From assembly GCA_937936355.1 (NCBI GenBank), contig CALDDM010000010.1, forward strand, positions 1 through 39,314: 39,314 nt of DNA, read 5' to 3'. A program made the translations under genes and the position numbers. This DNA comes from Minisyncoccota bacterium. Its GTDB lineage: Bacteria; Patescibacteriota; Minisyncoccia; Moranbacterales; GCA-2747515. Positions 26,561 to 35,967 of the stretch are shown one piece after another. Each line of letters opens with the position of its first letter. The first letter of the stretch is position 1. The notes under the pieces were generated by a model, which saw nothing but the letters and a program-made list of their open reading frames with translations, was not told where the DNA came from and ran no database searches.

Positions 26561-26740
26561 AGGAGTACCTGGAAGATCTCGCTCGATTCGCTCTTATGAA
26601 ACCCACGGTTTCATAGACTTACTTCCACGGGGAAAATGCTTTTACTCAAAACCTTTTTGTTCGAGCCCTATCATTTCAACAAACAATAAAAGCTTGCAAT
26701 GTGTATGCGCAAGCTTTTATTGTTTTGCGAAAGTGGGCGG
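26561..26740 (+). repeat. tRNA-associated structured repeat, copy C (degenerate)
   Basis: TATGAAACC-CAC-GGTTTCATA hairpin (26595-26615), CCACGGGGAAAAtgcTTTT, GTTCGAGCCCTATCATT end, then AAACAATAAAAGCTTGC inverted repeat; decayed GGAGTACCTGG and GCGAAAGTGGGCGG at the edges. Confidence 0.75.
26681..26725. terminator. Perfect 17-bp inverted repeat (hairpin) within repeat copy C
   Basis: AAACAATAAAAGCTTGC (26681-26697) / GCAAGCTTTTATTGTTT (26709-26725), 11-nt loop. Confidence 0.7.
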
Positions 26741-26801
26741 TCATTGATCGAACTGCCCTCACTCGTGATAGTCATCTAGATACTATACTGAACTCCGTGA
26801 A
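26728..26801 (-). pseudogene. Decayed tRNA remnant, possibly tRNA-Asp-derived
   Basis: Minus strand AGTTCAGTATAGTATCTAGATGACTATCACGAGTGAGGGCAGTTCGATC...CACTTTCGCAAAACAATAAAAGCTTGC follows the layout and trailer of the intact tRNA-Asp (CTGTCAC loop, GTTCGAGCC, CCGCAAAATGATAAAAGCTTGC); acceptor stem no longer pairs. Confidence 0.45.
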
Positions 26802-26832
26802 GGTGAGCGCAAAATTAGTATGACTGAGTCTT

Positions 26833-28503
26833 CTAAGGCCTCAATAATGAAGCATAATATGCTTCACCCTCATAAATCCAGTTAGGATCACTTTCAATAA
26901 GCCTACTCTTTTCAGCTTCGCTTGTTGTGTAGAAATGCGAACGATAAACTTGACTATAAAACCTGTAAACCACTTGTCGGTTTATCCCCGCTTCCGTATA
27001 CACATTATATGCAATTCCTTCATACGACCAATTAGGGTCATTAGCAATTATAAAATCTCTTTCTCTCAATGACGTTGTGTAGAAATGTGATTGATAATTA
27101 TTACTATAAAACCTATATAACGGTGAAAGATCTGTGTCTACACCCTCTACAACTTCATATGCTACTCCCTCATAATTCCAGCTAGAGTCATTTGCGATAA
27201 GACTATTTTTCTCGGTTTCGCTCTTTGTGTAAAAATGAGAATTCTTCTCCTTACTGTAAAATCGATAAATAGGAGCAAAATCACAAATCTTTCCACCATC
27301 AGTAATCTCCCATTGATCTAGCACTATCATATTTATACGATCATCAACAGAATGGCAATACCGCGAATTTCCGCCACCAAACCTCACACCATTCCTAAGA
27401 TTTTGAGTACTCCAACCAGCAAGAAGTGCGTCGTAATTCTTCACCGAAAGCGCTGTCCGATCAAACATTCCACTTGCATCTACAATTCTCTCAACATTCC
27501 ATGATTGCAGATTCTGATCAAAAGCAGATGATGAACCAAACATATACCTCACATCTCTGAGGGAGCTGGTATTCCAACTTGTTATATCCCCATTAAATGA
27601 AAGTGTTCCAGAAAACATACCATGCATATTCGTTACAGAACTTGTATCCCAACCATTCAAATCTTGATTGAACTTTACTGTTCCAGAAAACATACCACTC
27701 ATGTCAGTAACAGAAGATGTATCCCAGCCACCTATATCTCCATTAAATACTCTCGCACTTGAAAACATGCCGCTCATATTCGTTACAGAGCTGGTATCCC
27801 AGCTACTCAAATCTTGATTGAAAGAGGCTGCATTAACAAACATAGCTTCCATAGTACGAACCGATCTCGTATCCCAGCTACTCAAATCTTGATTGAAGGA
27901 AGTTGCACTCTGAAATAACATACTCATGTCAGTAACAGAAGATGTGTCCCAACCACTAACATCCCCATTAAATGCCATTGCAACAGAAAACATTCTACTC
28001 ATGTCCGTGACCCCTGACAAATCAGGCACATCTGATGCAGAAGCGGTAAGATTTACTGCGCCAGAAAATGCATTATTCATACTTGCCCACGCACCAGAGC
28101 CCCATTGAACAATGTCAACAATCTTCTCCTTGTCTCCTGTACCATTAAAATAGATGCGCGGAAAATTCCCTTGAATGCGAATGGTATAACTACCTGGAAC
28201 ACCAAAGTCATGCGACACATCACCAGTAATGCCAAACTCATCAAAAACTCCATCATTATTCCAATCAACATCATAATTATACCCAGTGCCAACTGTAGGA
28301 ATCCTGATGGATGTCTGACTTGATTCACCAGGATTATCCGTTTTCCAGATTGAAACAAAATCATCAGATGGAGCTGCATCGACCCTGCACGTAATTAGTG
28401 CCAAAGAAAAAACAATTGCAAATGCTAGTATTGCATATGAGTGTATCCCACGAAAACAAAACTCCATAATTTTGTAATTAAATAAATAAAAATTGTCTTT
28501 CAC
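26833..28503 (-). CDS. BspA-like (DUF285) surface protein with C-terminal DUF5648-like repeats
   Basis: Repeated [20 protein letters not shown] units; three C-terminal YRFYS....SHFYT.S..E...I..DP.W.YEG.AY repeats; signal peptide. Confidence 0.88.
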
Positions 28504-28621
28504 AGCCCAAGGTTGACGATTTAATTACATACCATAGTTTAAGGGAATTATATCACGCAATAGTTCAAGCCATGTCGGTCGCTCAGAATTTTACACCAAA
28601 AAACCGCTCAAAAAGCAATCT

Positions 28622-29386
28622 TTATTTTGCGGGACCTCGTGGACGTTGTTCGAACGAACTTCTCTCTTGAGGTTTTTTATAATACTGCCGACTTGCATTC
28701 TCAGTAATCATACTATTTATTTTTTCTAAAGATAACCCAGGACCTATTTCGCTTGGTTCTGCTTTCGAGTAAAGAGCATGACTTGGCGTTAAAGGAAATA
28801 GAATGTCGTAAGCACTTAACTCAAACCGCTCATCCCATGTGTATATAGAATAGCCTTTTTCACTATCATTGACTTGATATAGTAATACTGGCTTATCGCA
28901 CGTATATACTTCTCCCTCAGCAGAAAGATCAACGATCTCCCACTTTCTTTTTTTTAACTCCCAATACGTAAGCCATGCAAGTAAATGATCATCTGCAATC
29001 TGCATATCTTTATCATCTGCATCCCTACCCAACTCAGAAATTAGAAAATCTCTCACTTTAGGATTCCTGCACATATATAACGATGGAAACACCAAGAAAA
29101 TATTGATATAATCTTGGTTTCTCATATCTCCTAAGAGATTATTCAGAAATTCATCGAAATGGCTCTCTAGCTCAGCAAAGCTATCCTCAAAATACGTTGC
29201 CTCCAATCCGCTATCCTCAGATACAAGATTAAACCTTCTTTCATATGCACACTTCTCAGGCTTCTTGGGTCCCCATGAGTTTTTTTGTTTATCAAAACAG
29301 CAAAGCGACCCTGCACCAGCCCCATCAGAGGTCCACCTCTTTAGGTATGTCTGCGACACATAATGATTATTGACTTTTTTTCCCAT
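28622..29386 (-). CDS. DUF4238 domain-containing protein
   Basis: N-terminal NNHYVSQTYLKRWTSDG and CAYERRFN motifs typical of DUF4238. Confidence 0.8.
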   Translation of the reverse strand: MGKKVNNHYVSQTYLKRWTSDGAGAGSLCCFDKQKNSWGPKKPEKCAYERRFNLVSEDSGLEATYFEDSFAELESHFDEFLNNLLGDMRNQDYINIFLVFPSLYMCRNPKVRDFLISELGRDADDKDMQIADDHLLAWLTYWELKKRKWEIVDLSAEGEVYTCDKPVLLYQVNDSEKGYSIYTWDERFELSAYDILFPLTPSHALYSKAEPSEIGPGLSLEKINSMITENASRQYYKKPQERSSFEQRPRGPAK

Positions 29387-29389
29387 GCC

Positions 29390-29551
29390 TTATGCATTAT
29401 TTTTCTGGTACTTCTCTGGATTATTCCTCATGTCAATTCTAAGCAATAGATCAAAAAAACCAACTACTCGAGATTGCTCCTCACCTGTCCATTCAGAAGC
29501 TTTCGACTTCTTGGGCTTCTCCGATCTCCTTGCTTTCTTTTGCTTTTTCAT
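29390..29551 (-). CDS. Small basic hypothetical protein (53 aa) just upstream of the DUF4238 gene
   Basis: Minus strand MKKQKKARRSEKPKKSKASEWTGEEQSRVVGFFDLLLRIDMRNNPEKYQKNNA*, stop 3 nt before the DUF4238 ATG; below the length cut-off of the ORF track. Confidence 0.5.
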   Translation of the reverse strand: MKKQKKARRSEKPKKSKASEWTGEEQSRVVGFFDLLLRIDMRNNPEKYQKNNA

Positions 29552-29626
29552 TTAGATATAGTCTTAATATCAAAGCTGCATATAGGTTCAACAATCTATC
29601 TATCTCTAATTTATTTTTATTCATTG

Positions 29627-30439
29627 TCATTTCTTTAAGTTATTGAAATCTATTTCAAATTTTTCCTCAAGAAATGTCATGGTATCTTTCTGGTTCTGCA
29701 GACTTACCTTCACTCTCTGCGCTGTAAACAACCCTGCATTTTTTTCCCAGTATGCATCATCCTTTGCCACTGACTTCATCCACTTTATTTTTACAAGGTA
29801 TTCTGATTTTTCATTACTAGAGTTTTTGAAAAGTGGGTCATTCGCATCCATGTATTCTTCAAGTAATTTTCCACCCACAGAAAACTGCGTAGGGCGAACT
29901 GCCTCTTGATCAACGGTCCCCACACCGACATACCCATATCTCTTTAAGTATGCAACAACAACGTCTCCTTTTTTCAGCTCACGCAGAGGATCGCTCCACT
30001 GAACCCCCTGACCTGCAGAGAGGAATCCATACTTTCTGCAATCCTCCCATTTCCTATGGTCGCCCTCTCCAACATTGACGTAATAGATGCCATTGTGAAA
30101 ATCAAACTCTGAGAGTGATCTATGCAGTGTGTCATGGGGACGAAACTTATCTCCAAAGTGACCAGGTGATACATTTGTGAGATTCTTTCCTAATTTCCAG
30201 ATCAATGTCTTCTCCACCAGAAAAGCCTCTTGCTCAGTCAAATCTTTCGCGATAACTTTTATAATTGGATCAAGACCTTCTTTCTGAATGGCCTTTATAC
30301 GCTTAGCCTTTTCTGTATCACCCTCGTCATTGAGATGCGCATATTTACGATCGCCCTTTCCTTTGCCATAGTAAAAATCCTCAAAGTTTCTCGGATCTAT
30401 GTAAACATAGACGTAATATTTAGAATTAACATTTTTCAT
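29627..30439 (-). CDS. LEM-3-like GIY-YIG endonuclease fused to an EVE/PUA-like domain
   Basis: YYVYVYIDPRNFEDFYYGKGKGDRKYAHL (LEM-3-type GIY-YIG) then GIYYVNVGEGDHRKWEDCRKYGFLSAGQGVQWSDPLRELKKGDVVVAYLKRYGYVGVGTV (EVE/PUA-like). Confidence 0.75.
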   Translation of the reverse strand: MKNVNSKYYVYVYIDPRNFEDFYYGKGKGDRKYAHLNDEGDTEKAKRIKAIQKEGLDPIIKVIAKDLTEQEAFLVEKTLIWKLGKNLTNVSPGHFGDKFRPHDTLHRSLSEFDFHNGIYYVNVGEGDHRKWEDCRKYGFLSAGQGVQWSDPLRELKKGDVVVAYLKRYGYVGVGTVDQEAVRPTQFSVGGKLLEEYMDANDPLFKNSSNEKSEYLVKIKWMKSVAKDDAYWEKNAGLFTAQRVKVSLQNQKDTMTFLEEKFEIDFNNLKK

Positions 30440-31425
30440 TAGAGATTTTTTATCTCTTCAATCGATCCATGTGTTACAACTGCATGGCATTGAGCACAAA
30501 GACACCTCATATTCACTGGAAGGTCTACACCTTTCGTATCTGCACCTAAAGGAATGATATGGTCTGCCTCGGCATAAGGCCTACCATTTTTTTGAATGAA
30601 CGGCTCACGTCCACATAACTCACAAATGTAGCTATTCCTCTGCTTTATATACTCTGCAAATTTCTTGTTGCGTACAATCTTATTCAAAAACTGCTGCCTC
30701 CTCTTCTGCGTTCCACCTTTCACCTGATCAATCAACTTTTGCATCTTCTCATCTGTAATTTCTCCAAATGTTTCCTTCGCTACCGCCTTTGAGAAATCAT
30801 CATCAGAATTATCTTTTTCTTCGATCTCTACATTCAGCACACTACTCCCTACAATCTCTTTCAATTGTTTATAGACATCCATACTAATACCAACATCCAT
30901 TTTAAAGCTATCCGGCAACACCTGATCCAAATGATATTCCTTTGAAATCATGGCGCCGAGCTCATATCCCCTAGCTAGTGTTCCACTACTGTGTAAATCT
31001 ATCTCTCCCACGGAAAATGATTTGTCAAAAGCTAACCTGTCAGCGTAATGCTTAGCATATTGCTTAATCCTCCCTCTTCCGTCCTTGATACCATACTCTC
31101 GCTCAAATTGCATCCAACCAAAGCCCACGACCAGATGTACACTTGTCATATCAGCACTGAAAAGCAGAGCGACATAATAACCATTTTCTGCCTTATTTGT
31201 CACCTCCTTATCAAGAACTACCAACCACGGGACCTCTGCCCATGCTCCTTGACCGACAGATGTTTTTATCAAGAATTGATTCCTATCAATCTTAAACTCA
31301 TCATAGAATACTTCACGTAATGTATCCGTAAATTCACGCACCTCGTCGGTATATTTGAATGGCCGATCCTTTGTCTGCAGGTGCCTCTTACCAAAGCCAT
31401 TAATTATTTCTTTTGTTTTTTCCAT
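30439..31425 (-). CDS. MrcB_N (DUF3578)-HNH endonuclease, type IV restriction-like
   Basis: SVGQGAWAEVPWLVVLDKEVTNKAENGYYVALLFSADMTSVHLVVGFGW (MrcB_N) and CELCGREPFIQKNGRPYAEADHIIPLGADTKGVDLPVNMRCLCAQCHAVVTHG (HNH). Likely start MEKTKEI at 31425; ORF track start is 31479. Confidence 0.85.
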   Translation of the reverse strand: MEKTKEIINGFGKRHLQTKDRPFKYTDEVREFTDTLREVFYDEFKIDRNQFLIKTSVGQGAWAEVPWLVVLDKEVTNKAENGYYVALLFSADMTSVHLVVGFGWMQFEREYGIKDGRGRIKQYAKHYADRLAFDKSFSVGEIDLHSSGTLARGYELGAMISKEYHLDQVLPDSFKMDVGISMDVYKQLKEIVGSSVLNVEIEEKDNSDDDFSKAVAKETFGEITDEKMQKLIDQVKGGTQKRRQQFLNKIVRNKKFAEYIKQRNSYICELCGREPFIQKNGRPYAEADHIIPLGADTKGVDLPVNMRCLCAQCHAVVTHGSIEEIKNL

Positions 31426-31438
31426 ACTTGTATAGTTT

Positions 31439-32035
31439 TTAACATATATTTTCACATGGAACCCCATCGTCATCTCCATCCCTCACTGAGCAACCGCATG
31501 TATTTAATTGAAAGTATGCCTCTTCGCATGAGTTCATATTTGGACATGTCTTTGAGCAGTTACAGGAGTAACCCGGCCTTTGCTGAGCCTTTCTTTGTCT
31601 CTCCAGCTCTACCTGCCTCCCCCTTTCGATTCTCTGCTGCTCTACTATATTCTCGAGTCTTTTTTGCTCTGCCAGTCTTGCAGCATCTGCATCAGCCCTT
31701 GCCTTACGTTCCGCTTCTGCCGCCTCTTCTATTACTTTTGCCTTCGCAGCCGCCTCTTCCTTCTCGCGTTCAAGTCTCTCATTTTTAATTTGCAATTCCT
31801 CCTTAGCCTTTCGCTCATCTTCAATTTTCTTTTCCTCTATAAGCTGAGCCTCTTTTTTTTGTTTGATGAGCTCCTCTTCGCTTTTCGTTTTGCCCACTCC
31901 TGCTTGCTGTACATCATTTTCAATAAGTACTTCCTCACTGATAACCCCCTCACTTTTCGACTTATCATTTATAACAGCTCCACCAAAAAGAACTGCTGAG
32001 GAAGCGAAAATGACTGGAATAATTCTTTGCAACAT
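31439..32035 (-). CDS. Secreted coiled-coil protein with C-terminal Excalibur domain
   Basis: Signal peptide, long K/E-rich coiled coil, CSKTCPNMNSCEEAYFQLNTCGCSVRDGDDDGVPCENIC. Confidence 0.85.
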   Translation of the reverse strand: MLQRIIPVIFASSAVLFGGAVINDKSKSEGVISEEVLIENDVQQAGVGKTKSEEELIKQKKEAQLIEEKKIEDERKAKEELQIKNERLEREKEEAAAKAKVIEEAAEAERKARADADAARLAEQKRLENIVEQQRIERGRQVELERQRKAQQRPGYSCNCSKTCPNMNSCEEAYFQLNTCGCSVRDGDDDGVPCENIC

Positions 32036-32036
32036 A

Positions 32037-33608
32037 CTACTCTTGTCTCAATAATTTTCGTATATGATTTCTCAGCGACTCATCAACACAGTAGATATAT
32101 GTTCCTTTAATCCCTCGCGTTAGAAGCGTCTTGTATATATTGAGTATGTATCTTTTGATTTCAGCATCGTCAGGAACACCTCTGTGACCACTCTTGTCTT
32201 TGTAAAATTCTCTCTTGAATATAAATTCATTTTTTTGTGCATCATATGAGAGCTCTGGACCAATGATTACACCAACATAATTGAGGTCATATCCCTGAAC
32301 AGTGTGAATACATCCAACCTCATTGATTGCATTGGGGGAATTTACCCAATCACCGCTTACACTATTCCATCTCAGTTTTTTACTTCCGATTTCTATATCC
32401 CACTCATGCGGATTGCTTTTTGATACCCACTCCCATGCATAACCGGCAACGAGTCGTGATAGTCCATACTCGTGATCATTCGACTTGATCCGAGAAATCA
32501 TTTCTGGGAGATCATCAAAGATTTGTACATCGTAATTTCCAACATCCGGGAGGTATTCTTGCCTACCATCAAAGATACCCTGTATGAACTGGATGAAGAT
32601 GTCACCTGCCTGTACGCGCATTTGCTCTTCGAGGCGATATGTATCGCTATCCAGCTTCTCAAAATCAGAAGATGAAACATCAGAAGGGCGAATGGATTGA
32701 TTTGGGTCATAGAAGAATATCTGCTCATTTGATTGTTTCACAATCCAGTCGAGCTGTGTTGCCTCTTTTTCTAGGCCCAGTTTCTTGTTTACATTATCAT
32801 AGGCACCCATCGCTGTAATATTCTTTCGTTTATTGAGCCTATGAGCCTCATCTACAATGAGTAGATCGTATTTCTTTTTTGCAACATCATTTGGCCCAAG
32901 CACCATTGATGCGCTTAGTCCTGGAATATTACGAAAAACCCTCCTGAGCGTATCCCTAAGTGGAGTCATTGCGATCACTAGTCCGATAGAGAGATCTTTC
33001 GTATCTTTGTGTTCACTTAGATACTTTATAAGGTAGGTTGCAAGGATTGTCTTTCCTGTTCCTGGTTTTCCTGTCACAAGATGTGCCTTACTCGCTCTCT
33101 TCTTTATCTTTTCTACGAGGTCCAGCACAACACCCTCCTGATCATCATTGAGCGCCTTGTATGGCGAGTATTTGAAGAGGTCCGTATTTTGTAGATCCCT
33201 TAGTGATTGTGATGCGAGATTCATTTCACGAAGCTCATCCCAAATCACATCGAACTTTGCTCGATATTTTTCCCTGTCGTAATAGCTATGATTCTGTAAT
33301 CCAGCATTTCCATTTTGCAATTTGTATTTTCCGTCTGCAGCAAGGTATTGGATGAGCCATGACTCTATATCAAGCGCTGCAGATTTATTGTACTCGTCAT
33401 CAGCAATTACATGGATTGCATTGAGTCTTTGTCTTTGTTCGTTTTTGAGATGCTCTTTACTTCTCCTGAAGACATTTACCGCCTCCCCAATGTAGGCTTC
33501 CTTTCCATTCTCTTGGATATATACAACAGGCCAATCCTTACCGTACCTATACTCTTTCAACTGAGCAATGTCATTTTCATTGAAACTGAATGTAGTGATT
33601 TTACTCAT
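32037..33608 (-). CDS. GIY-YIG nuclease-DUF2075 (SF1-like helicase/ATPase) protein
   Basis: WPVVYIQENGKEAYIGEAVNVFRRSKEHL (GIY-YIG), HLVTGKPGTGKTILATYLI (Walker A), YDLLIVDEAHRLNKRKN (Walker B), CIHTVQGYDLNYVGVIIGPEL. Confidence 0.9.
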   Translation of the reverse strand: MSKITTFSFNENDIAQLKEYRYGKDWPVVYIQENGKEAYIGEAVNVFRRSKEHLKNEQRQRLNAIHVIADDEYNKSAALDIESWLIQYLAADGKYKLQNGNAGLQNHSYYDREKYRAKFDVIWDELREMNLASQSLRDLQNTDLFKYSPYKALNDDQEGVVLDLVEKIKKRASKAHLVTGKPGTGKTILATYLIKYLSEHKDTKDLSIGLVIAMTPLRDTLRRVFRNIPGLSASMVLGPNDVAKKKYDLLIVDEAHRLNKRKNITAMGAYDNVNKKLGLEKEATQLDWIVKQSNEQIFFYDPNQSIRPSDVSSSDFEKLDSDTYRLEEQMRVQAGDIFIQFIQGIFDGRQEYLPDVGNYDVQIFDDLPEMISRIKSNDHEYGLSRLVAGYAWEWVSKSNPHEWDIEIGSKKLRWNSVSGDWVNSPNAINEVGCIHTVQGYDLNYVGVIIGPELSYDAQKNEFIFKREFYKDKSGHRGVPDDAEIKRYILNIYKTLLTRGIKGTYIYCVDESLRNHIRKLLRQE

Positions 33609-33613
33609 GATGT

Positions 33614-33949
33614 TTACAACTCTGTGTATTTAGTAGATTTTCCTTTTGACTTTTCTACCGGATACTTTGAAGCTGCTTTTGCGAGCTTTTTATCTAGTGC
33701 TTCATCAATGTCTATTCCCGCATCGTGCGCCATCAGAAGGACCCAATAATAAACATCTGCCAATTCATCCTGCAATTCATCCTCCTTACCCTCTTGAACC
33801 GTGTTGTCCTTGGTCCACTGGAAGAGCTCGAGAACCTCTGAAGCCTCAAGATTCAAAGAGAGAGCCATATTCTTCATGTCATGAAATTGCTCCCAATCTC
33901 TATCCTTACGAAATTGGAGGATTTTCTTTATGAGATCTTGCTTGTTCAT
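33614..33949 (-). CDS. MazG-like nucleotide pyrophosphohydrolase
   Basis: FRKDRDWEQFHDMKNMALSLNLEASEVLELFQW...ELQDELADVYYWVLLMAHDAGID (EExxE-type metal site). 5 nt from the DUF2075 gene. Confidence 0.88.
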   Translation of the reverse strand: MNKQDLIKKILQFRKDRDWEQFHDMKNMALSLNLEASEVLELFQWTKDNTVQEGKEDELQDELADVYYWVLLMAHDAGIDIDEALDKKLAKAASKYPVEKSKGKSTKYTEL

Positions 33950-34021
33950 ATACCTAACTATATTGTTACACTTATAATATCATACGATTTTTCCTTGTAT
34001 CTAGGTGGTAAAATAAATAAC

Positions 34022-34666
34022 ATGATTGAAACAATAATCACAATAATTAAGACAATCTGGTTAGTGCCATTTCTCATCTTGATTATTTGGTATTTCAAAA
34101 AACCCAGCACTAAAGGAAAGGTTGGCGAATTTGTGACAAACAGTGTGATCAAAATTAGCTTCGATAAAGATAAGTATCACCTCGTAAAAGATCTCACATT
34201 TAAAACACACCACAGCTCTACTCAGGTAGATGAAGTTATCATCTCTCAGTATGGAATATTCGTGATAGAGACTAAAAATTGGAACGGATGGATATTTGGC
34301 AGTGAACATCAAGCAGAGTGGACCGTGGTATACAAAGGAGGTAAAAAATATAAAAAACTTAATCCCATATTACAAAACAAAGGACACATTAAGGCTATTG
34401 CAGAAAAATTTAACATACCTGAGTCAAAAATATTTTCAATTGTAGTATTTGTTGGTGATGTGGATAAATGTAAAATTAAAACAAAAATGCCAGACAATGT
34501 TGGCTACCCAAGCACAATGAGAAAATATATAGAATCAAAATCTGAAATCCTATTATCAAAGATAAATGTCGAAAAAATACTCAAAGACATTGCCATCAAG
34601 AGACTACCAAGAGGACGAGAAACAGATATTCAGCATATAGAAAATATCAGGAAGATGCACAGATAA
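34022..34666 (+). CDS. Membrane-anchored NERD (nuclease-related) domain protein
   Basis: N-terminal TM (MIETIITIIKTIWLVPFLILIIWYF), GKVGEFVTNSVI, QVDEVIISQYGIFVIETKNWNGWIFGSEHQAEWTV. Start at 34022; ORF track start is 33881. Confidence 0.85.
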   Translation: MIETIITIIKTIWLVPFLILIIWYFKKPSTKGKVGEFVTNSVIKISFDKDKYHLVKDLTFKTHHSSTQVDEVIISQYGIFVIETKNWNGWIFGSEHQAEWTVVYKGGKKYKKLNPILQNKGHIKAIAEKFNIPESKIFSIVVFVGDVDKCKIKTKMPDNVGYPSTMRKYIESKSEILLSKINVEKILKDIAIKRLPRGRETDIQHIENIRKMHR

Positions 34667-34751
34667 TTCCAAAGAATTCTCTGGTTACACAGAGAAAAGC
34701 TGGAAGAAGGAAATATAAACTTAACGATTTAAAGTATACTTCTTATCAAAA

Positions 34752-34775
34752 AACCGTTCCTGAGAACGGCTTCTT
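34752..34775 (+). terminator. Terminator-like hairpin after the NERD gene
   Basis: CCGTTC-CTGA-GAACGG then CTTCTT. Confidence 0.55.
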
Positions 34776-34794
34776 GCGACAAAAATTTCGATTG

Positions 34795-34982
34795 GCGGGA
34801 GTGACCGGGCATCTTACGTGTCACTTCGCTCCTTTCAAGAACCCACGGTTCTCGAGACTCTCCTCCACTGGAAAACAAATGTTTTCCCGACCCCTTTCCT
34901 TGTTCGAGCCCTACCATTCCAAGAAACAATAAAAGCCTACATATACATGCAAGCTTTTATCATTTTGCGGGAGTGACCGGGC
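34795..34982 (+). repeat. tRNA-associated structured repeat, copy A, flanked by direct repeats of the tRNA-Asp 3' end
   Basis: GCGGGAGTGACCGGGC at 34795-34810 and 34967-34982; AGAACC-CAC-GGTTCT hairpin (34838-34852); GGAAAAC-AAAT-GTTTTCC hairpin (34870-34887); GTTCGAGCCC (34902-34911). Confidence 0.8.
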
Positions 34983-35042
34983 TCGAACCGGCGACCTTCT
35001 GCGTGACAGGCAGACGCTCTAACCAAGCTGAGCTACACCCCC
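34968..35042 (-). tRNA. tRNA-Asp(GTC)
   Basis: GGGGGTGTAGCTCAGCTTGGTTAGAGCGTCTGCCTGTCACGCAGAAGGTCGCCGGTTCGAGCCCGGTCACTCCCG; full cloverleaf, anticodon GTC, no encoded CCA. Confidence 0.95.
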
Positions 35043-35061
35043 GTATGTCACTATCATTTTA

Positions 35062-35109
35062 CAATGATTTCTTAGAAGAAAAATTCATTTATCTTCTAAG
35101 AAATCATTG
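35062..35109 (-). terminator. Strong hairpin terminator of the 98-aa gene
   Basis: Perfect 18-bp inverted repeat CAATGATTTCTTAGAAGA / TCTTCTAAGAAATCATTG, 3 nt past the stop codon. Confidence 0.7.
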
Positions 35110-35112
35110 CAA

Positions 35113-35409
35113 TTACTCAAAAATACTCTCAACCTCTGCCTCAATTCCTTTCATCCTCTCCTTGTTGCCATTCAAGCCTCGAGCAAGATTATCTGCATAC
35201 TCACTTGCCAAGGCAGCTAGCGCTTCAATCTTACCTGAGTCATTTGCACATTCACCAGCAATGTAATCTAAAGGAAGATTTACCATATTTGCAATATGCT
35301 CGATAGCGCCTTGCTGTGTATCTGTGAAATTCTCACTAACTTTACCTGAGACACCGCCTTCTATCGAAGGTGATTCAACGCTTTCCATGTTGTTCATAAA
35401 TTTGCACAA
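35113..35409 (-). CDS. Hypothetical small acidic protein (98 aa)
   Basis: Sits between tRNA-Met and tRNA-Asp on the same strand with its own terminator; family not recognised. Confidence 0.55.
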   Translation of the reverse strand: MCKFMNNMESVESPSIEGGVSGKVSENFTDTQQGAIEHIANMVNLPLDYIAGECANDSGKIEALAALASEYADNLARGLNGNKERMKGIEAEVESIFE

Positions 35410-35419
35410 ATTTATAACG

Positions 35420-35493
35420 TACCAGGGGTGAGAATTGAACTCACGACCTCAGGCTTATGAGTCCTGTGCTCTAACCAACTGAGCTACCCTGGC
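35420..35493 (-). tRNA. tRNA-Met(CAT), elongator type (tRNA-Ile2 not excluded)
   Basis: GCCAGGGTAGCTCAGTTGGTTAGAGCACAGGACTCATAAGCCTGAGGTCGTGAGTTCAATTCTCACCCCTGGTA; body resembles elongator tRNA-Met. Confidence 0.9.
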
Positions 35494-35688
35494 ATATCAT
35501 TATGTCATGATAGTTCAATTTGCTAAATATTGCACGTGTCGGACGAGTCCTGCGCTCACTGTATTTAACGAAGAACTGAGCTACCCTGGCATATCATTAT
35601 GTCATGATAGTTCAATTTGCTAAATCTTGCACGTGTCGGACGAGTCCTGTGCTCACTGTATTTAACGAAGAACTGAGCTACCCTGGCA
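35481..35688 (-). repeat. 97-bp tandem repeat containing degenerate tRNA-Met 5' halves (two units plus a partial third)
   Basis: gagctaccctggc recurs at 35481, 35578 and 35675; units nearly identical, including cgagtcctgNgctcactgtatttaacgaagaact. Confidence 0.9.
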
Positions 35689-35696
35689 CCAATTGT

Positions 35697-35908
35697 TAAT
35701 TGTCACGAGTACAATGTGTTGCGGGAGTAGATTTTCACGTCAATCACCTAAGTGATCTCCTATGAAACCGTGGGTTTCATAGTCTTCCGTCCACGGGGAA
35801 ATATCTTTCCCCGACCCCCTTTCGTTCAAATCCTAGCAGACTACGTAGAATAATTTTACTTGAAAGATGATTGATTGTCACGAGTACAATGTGTTGCGGG
35901 AGTAGGAT
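35697..35908 (+). repeat. tRNA-associated structured repeat, copy B, flanked by direct repeats of the tRNA-fMet 3' end and trailer
   Basis: attgtcacgagtacaatgtgttgcgggagtag at about 35697 and 35873; TATGAAACC-GTG-GGTTTCATA hairpin (35761-35781); CGGGGAAA-TATC-TTTCCCCG hairpin (35794-35813); GTTCAAATCCTA (35824-35835). Confidence 0.85.
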
Positions 35909-35967
35909 TTGAACCTACGACCTCCTGGTTATGAGCCAGACGAGCTGCCGGACTGCTCTATCCCGCT
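35894..35967 (-). tRNA. Initiator tRNA-fMet(CAT)
   Basis: AGCGGGATAGAGCAGTCCGGCAGCTCGTCTGGCTCATAACCAGGAGGTCGTAGGTTCAAATCCTACTCCCGCAA; unpaired 1:72 (A,A), initiator-type D-arm and GGCTCATAACC loop. Confidence 0.93.

Follow-up and report, generated by a model that had tools for sequence, protein, structure and literature searches.

The 39,314-nt stretch of Minisyncoccota DNA analysed here (the window) carries three short repeats, at 26561-26740, 34795-34982 and 35697-35908, and raises the question of whether these are copies of a small mobile element, a structured RNA, or both. An earlier note, made from the letters of the window, described them as two-hairpin repeats tied to tRNA 3' ends, and the sequence is as described at all three positions. 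The meaningful strand of each copy is minus, which is the strand of the tRNAs, and copies 2 and 3 follow intact minus-strand tRNA genes (Table 1). Copy 1 lies instead beside a degenerate tRNA 3' remnant, where no tRNA was called by ARAGORN. Copies 2 and 3 contain the two hairpins with the compensatory changes quoted for them; in copy 1, the CGGGGAAA hairpin can no longer fold. The sequence GTTCnAnnCCTA, which had been taken for a fixed motif, is actually an inverted copy of the T-arm of the adjoining tRNA.

The organization is best read from copy 3. In the orientation of the tRNA, the end of the tRNA gene (...GTTCAAATCCTACTCCCGCAAC) is followed by a trailer, by TAGGATTTGAAC, by the core (GAAAGGGGGTCGGGGAAAG..TTTCCCCG..GACTATGAAACCCACGGTTTCATAG..GACGTG) and by AAAATCTACTCCCGCAAC.... 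In the first arm, the T-loop and the 3' T-stem strand of its own tRNA recur as their reverse complement, and the last arm repeats the tRNA 3' end directly, together with 22 nt of trailer. The loop of hairpin B (hairpin 1 in plus order) is inverted relative to the other copies, with a 22-nt perfect inverted match, and looks as an intramolecular template switch would leave it. The layout of copy 1 is that of copy 3, with one hairpin lost.

Table 1. Positions in the window of the three repeat copies, their parts and the tRNA sequences beside them (CM, covariance model)
Feature	Position	Strand	Basis and remarks
Copy 3, target: tRNA-Met gene	35893..35967	-	ARAGORN and Rfam; T is the 3' part, 35893-35914
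Copy 3, inverted T-arm copy	35824..35835	-	Sequence; TAGGATTTGAAC, reverse complement of GTTCAAATCCTA
Copy 3, conserved core (E)	35736..35823	-	CM match 35727-35836 minus, 92.9 bits; fold
Copy 3, hairpin A	35794-35813	-	Fold
Copy 3, hairpin B	35760-35782	-	Fold
Copy 3, T': direct copy of the tRNA-Met 3' end plus 22 nt of trailer	35696..35735	-	Direct repeat D8, 93% identity to 35871-35910
Copy 2, target: tRNA-Asp gene	34967..35042	-	ARAGORN and Rfam
Copy 2, inverted copy of the tRNA-Asp T-loop region	34902..34913	-	Sequence; TAGGGCTCGAAC
Copy 2, conserved core	34811..34901	-	CM match 34803-34914 minus, 88.4 bits; fold
Copy 2, hairpin A	34870-34887	-	Fold
Copy 2, hairpin B	34838-34852	-	Fold
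Copy 2, T': direct copy of the tRNA-Asp 3' end	34792..34810	-	Direct repeat D18, 95% to 34964-34982
Copy 1, degenerate tRNA-like 3' remnant in the place of a tRNA	26727..26760	-	Homology with the stretch of tRNA-Asp end, terminator and element
Copy 1, inverted T-loop copy	26659..26670	-	Sequence; TAGGGCTCGAAC
Copy 1, core	26575..26658	-	CM match 26565-26671 minus, 96.1 bits; fold
Copy 1, hairpin B, intact	26595-26616	-	Fold
Copy 1, hairpin A, decayed	26629-26648	-	Fold

As the earlier note supposed, the window's copies belong to an unrecognised family. It has many members, and covariance-model matches were found in the host genome, in its relatives and across the phylum. Five copies from the host genome and a single public one served to build the model. 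BLAST of the host genome revealed further copies besides the three of the window, and the covariance model places about 11 copies (11-13 matches) in this 1.2-Mb genome. Copies were also found in 42-43 of 96 relatives, where one genome often has several, and, with strict filters, in 20 of 287 genomes of a phylum-wide draw, where they are sporadic. The number of matches far exceeds chance. An exact-pattern scan of GTDB contigs added only one locus, and no copies were found among the viral contigs, plasmids or phages searched. Nor did Rfam 15 contain the family: with 4227 models at curated thresholds, only the tRNAs of the window were matched, and a sub-threshold search over the elements gave no credible match. 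No open-access paper describing the family was found in PMC, which is weak evidence since the subscription literature lay outside that search. The two-hairpin repeats form a new, previously uncatalogued family, unlike any of the known mobile elements and RNA families with which they were compared.

A unit of this family consists of the gene end (T), often with a terminator, an inverted copy of T, a core of about 90 nt with two hairpins, and a direct copy of T (T'), which is often followed by a second terminator. At tRNAs, the inverted copy covers the T-loop and the 3' T-stem strand. Placement beside tRNAs is usual, with 86 of 113 loci lying downstream of a tRNA in sense and only one in antisense; among the first 94 loci, 64 have a same-strand tRNA ending no more than 160 nt upstream, and 27 tRNA kinds are represented. 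The same layout is found at protein-coding genes, namely at the 3' end of rpsI (...APQWAKR-stop; Ribosomal_S9 domain) and, with the element antisense, at the 5' end of lepA (GTP_EFTU domain). Other targets are the 3' end of a gene for a protein of ~495 aa ending in ...IFGWAKF-stop and, again at the 5' end and antisense, an EF-G-like gene identified by its sequence. Two units stand in tandem at the rpsI loci L094 and L104 and at the IFGWAKF gene locus L061. In the recent-looking copies (L074, L120, L086, and L122), the tRNA end and its terminator are duplicated almost perfectly; elsewhere some arms have decayed, and for some copies a target can no longer be recognised. Orphan copies at L010, L020, L023, L049, L055, L058, and L095 adjoin a short tRNA-end-like stretch after a common motif, roughly GTTCnAACnTCGTCCC, which may be the terminus of an integrative element, unrelated to the repeats, that displaced the tRNA. 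At L061 and L104, open frames cross the core and encode peptides such as ...GFPVAEVLKPLGFRERSD..., so that translation of elements probably accounts for some of the C-terminal tails annotated in these bacteria.

The association with tRNA 3' ends noted earlier holds, but it had been missed that both arms copy the target. At 76 of 86 loci, T' fits its own tRNA more closely than it fits 95% of the other tRNA types, and the inverted arm fits its own tRNA at the 5% level at 42 of 86. The longest exact match exceeds the 99% control at 63 of 111 loci for the direct arm and at 22 of 111 for the inverted arm. The duplication extends past the tRNA end by a variable length, from 0 to 46 nt. Where the three copies of a target differ, the inverted copy sides with T' against T at 0 positions, as compared to 24 and 43 single-copy changes. 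Because the inverted copy never sides with T' against T, both arms are separate copies of the gene that have decayed independently; they look like scars of insertion, and upkeep of a stem between them is not supported. The idea that the inverted arm and T' form a functional closing stem was given up, as these counts reveal no co-change.

The mobile-element option of the earlier note is supported by the empty orthologous sites of relatives. Copies 2 and 3 of the window are absent from the compact tRNA operons of four relatives (G001, G003, G005, and G007), and a tRNA-Met copy is present in the host genome (G000) and absent in its congener G001, the situation being reversed at the tRNA-Phe site. 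Core identity is 0.75 between different sites in one genome and 0.667 for the same tRNA across genomes, with a background of 0.662; kinship of genomes raises the within-genome figure but does not explain the missing same-tRNA effect. Since cores group by genome and same-tRNA identity equals background, copies have spread within genomes. The repeat is probably a small non-autonomous mobile element, likely moving as RNA and copying its target upon insertion.

The involvement of RNA is suggested by the core itself. Covariation, assessed with shuffled and slid controls, is strong, and the fold is conserved. In the alignment fitted to the covariance model, 93.7% of cells pair and 17 of 18 pairs have changed on both sides; the observed covariation is attained in 0 of 500 shuffles, and slid registers also fall far below it. 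From a MAFFT alignment made without regard to structure, RNAalifold derived no consensus fold, so that the covariation relies on the model-fitted alignment with its shuffle and slide controls. On the tRNA-sense strand, with each genome and pair counted once, G-U occurs in 45 cells and A-C in 11 (p 5e-6, not corrected for kinship of genomes, which inflates both the wobble and the clustering statistics). A DNA hairpin predicts equal numbers of the two, and the G-U excess therefore makes the conserved object most simply a sense RNA. Judged from these sequence patterns, the conserved form would most simply be a two-hairpin RNA of the gene-sense strand. The conserved form resembles an RNA with the same reading direction as the gene, and the structured-RNA option of the earlier note is thus combined with mobility.

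We consider it probable that the family is a non-autonomous element with a ~90-nt core, a sense two-hairpin RNA, that inserts at a gene motif with duplication of the target and an inverted copy of the motif. The insertion point would be a motif within a conserved gene, such as the tRNA T-loop, the rpsI 3' end or the lepA 5' end, among others. The target would be duplicated from this motif to beyond the gene end, leaving the gene intact, and an inverted motif copy would be left across the core from the direct copy. Gene-sparing insertions would survive, hence the placement just past gene ends. In the scenario that we prefer, a staggered break or nick at the target motif would yield the long variable duplication, the bottom-strand end would prime on the RNA of the element or on a copy of it in single-stranded form, and the far end may then snap back and copy some 10-15 nt of target into the inverted arm before the ends are joined.

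As for the enzyme, no reverse transcriptase (PF00078, RVT_1) was found in the incomplete genomes G000, G001, G002, G007, G051, G055, and G080, and no Y1 transposase (PF01797) in the likewise incomplete G000, G001, G002, G007, G051, G055, and G057. G000, G001, G002, and G007, which are rich in copies, each contain a single tyrosine recombinase, in all likelihood Xer with its housekeeping role, and no self-mobile relative of the element was found. Thus, current movement in these hosts would need host enzymes or an unrecognised protein. More tentatively, with the odds somewhat against it, the family may represent a new kind of mobile element: an RNA of ~90 nt with no enzyme of its own, copied into breaks at conserved motifs, with both the snap-back inverted arm and the direct arm derived from the target, so that matching ends of its own would be unneeded.

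The missing reverse transcriptase, Y1 transposase and extra recombinases would also fit a process that needs no enzyme and no dedicated element, in which template switching at the quasi-palindrome of terminator and T-arm fetches the core from elsewhere by microhomology (GTTCGA / GATTCC) and returns. T, terminator and inverted T do form a long hairpin, and template switching typically produces inverted loops such as that of copy 3. However, an identical and precise layout at dozens of loci in many families would be hard to obtain by accident, as would a selected RNA structure, and we regard this origin as rather unlikely. The conserved RNA structure would suit a host-beneficial cis-acting RNA, as would the nearly invariant sense orientation and the ability of the inverted arm to base-pair with the gene end; the inverted T-arm would then pair with the tRNA or mRNA end, or with the direct copy, and control processing or stability. 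Such a role seems unlikely, considering that the orthologous tRNAs of close relatives are without the element, that no single tRNA is favoured, that the element is frequently located past the terminator, that the two arms show no compensatory co-change, and that the distribution in the phylum is sporadic. A reading of the inverted arm as an internal guide like that of group I introns was rejected, the core being too small and matching no intron.

The direct copy begins in the T-loop, and many integrases are known to use crossover sites of this class; the repeats could therefore be scars of tyrosine-recombinase elements, with the direct copy as the distal att half and the core as an attP remnant, and tRNA islands with distal core copies do seem to occur in this genus. 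Yet a fixed attP could not match 27 tRNA kinds as well as rpsI and lepA, core clusters follow the genome and not the tRNA, several copy-rich hosts have a single Xer-like recombinase, and the inverted copy is left unexplained. Scars of this kind, already disfavoured, are very unlikely.

The non-autonomous RNA element that we prefer resembles several known systems in part. Like REP/BIME sequences (RAYT, Y1 HUH), the repeats are short, palindromic, multi-copy, extragenic and non-autonomous; unlike them, they occur in several rich hosts with no Y1 transposase, have target-copied arms, and lie sense-only at conserved gene ends with an RNA-strand wobble bias. With MITEs they have in common small size, lack of autonomy, inverted arms and target duplication, but here the inverted arms are copied from each target rather than fixed, and the duplication length varies. 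tRNA-integrating tyrosine-recombinase elements also have a tRNA 3'-end copy that starts in the T-loop (here 76/86), whereas the present repeats have no integrase, measure about 150 bp, carry an extra inverted copy, and use one core for many tRNAs and proteins. Non-LTR retroelements and group II introns move by target-primed reverse transcription, with variable duplications and end-to-end template jumps. Variable-length target duplications and structured RNA are shared with these, as end-to-end template jumps would be, in contrast to the absence of a reverse transcriptase in several rich hosts, the ~90-nt core and the lack of an Rfam intron match. Rickettsia palindromic elements spread in reduced genomes with no enzyme of their own and insert inside genes; they too are small structured repeats in reduced genomes, a likeness by description and not by sequence, and we know of no description of target-copied arms in them. 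Integron attC sites have RYYYAAC/GTTRRRY core boxes and IntI; the arms of the repeats, being target-derived, contain no fixed boxes, and many hosts have only one tyrosine recombinase. The repeats fail the defining features of REP/RAYT, MITEs, integrase elements and RT-bearing retroelements, and we file them as short non-autonomous structured repeats.

Several observations were made in the neighbourhood of the repeats. The ~8-kb stretch between copies 1 and 2 (26760-34795), anchored at tRNA-Asp, encodes DUF285/DUF5648, DUF4238, GIY-YIG, MrcB_N-HNH, Schlafen-group-3 helicase, MazG-like and NERD proteins, and looks like an integrase-less genomic island with copy 1 at its distal end beside the tRNA-Asp-like remnant. 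Immediately upstream of tRNA-Asp, at 35059-35112, lies a 26-bp inverted repeat that is almost perfect and has a loop of 2 nt. Two 97-bp tandem repeats upstream of tRNA-Met (35477-35688) each contain its 5' half with an altered D-arm, and 5'-half copies likewise lie upstream of tRNA-Met in L145 (G005) and of tRNA-Phe in L043 and L051. These possibly form a second, 5'-sided class of tRNA-copying insertion. At approximately 1770-2090 of L051, an insert of a few hundred bases seems to split the anticodon region of a tRNA-Phe-like gene; read by eye, this insert looks like a group I intron.

In summary, a phylum with ~1-Mb genomes that are thought to be streamlined contains a widespread and countable family of repeats at many kinds of tRNA gene, which preserves its own insertion events in readable form. 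The family offers a direct route to study how short RNAs and repeats spread with no transposase, and it accounts for anomalous tRNA-fragment repeats in annotations and probably for some C-terminal tails.
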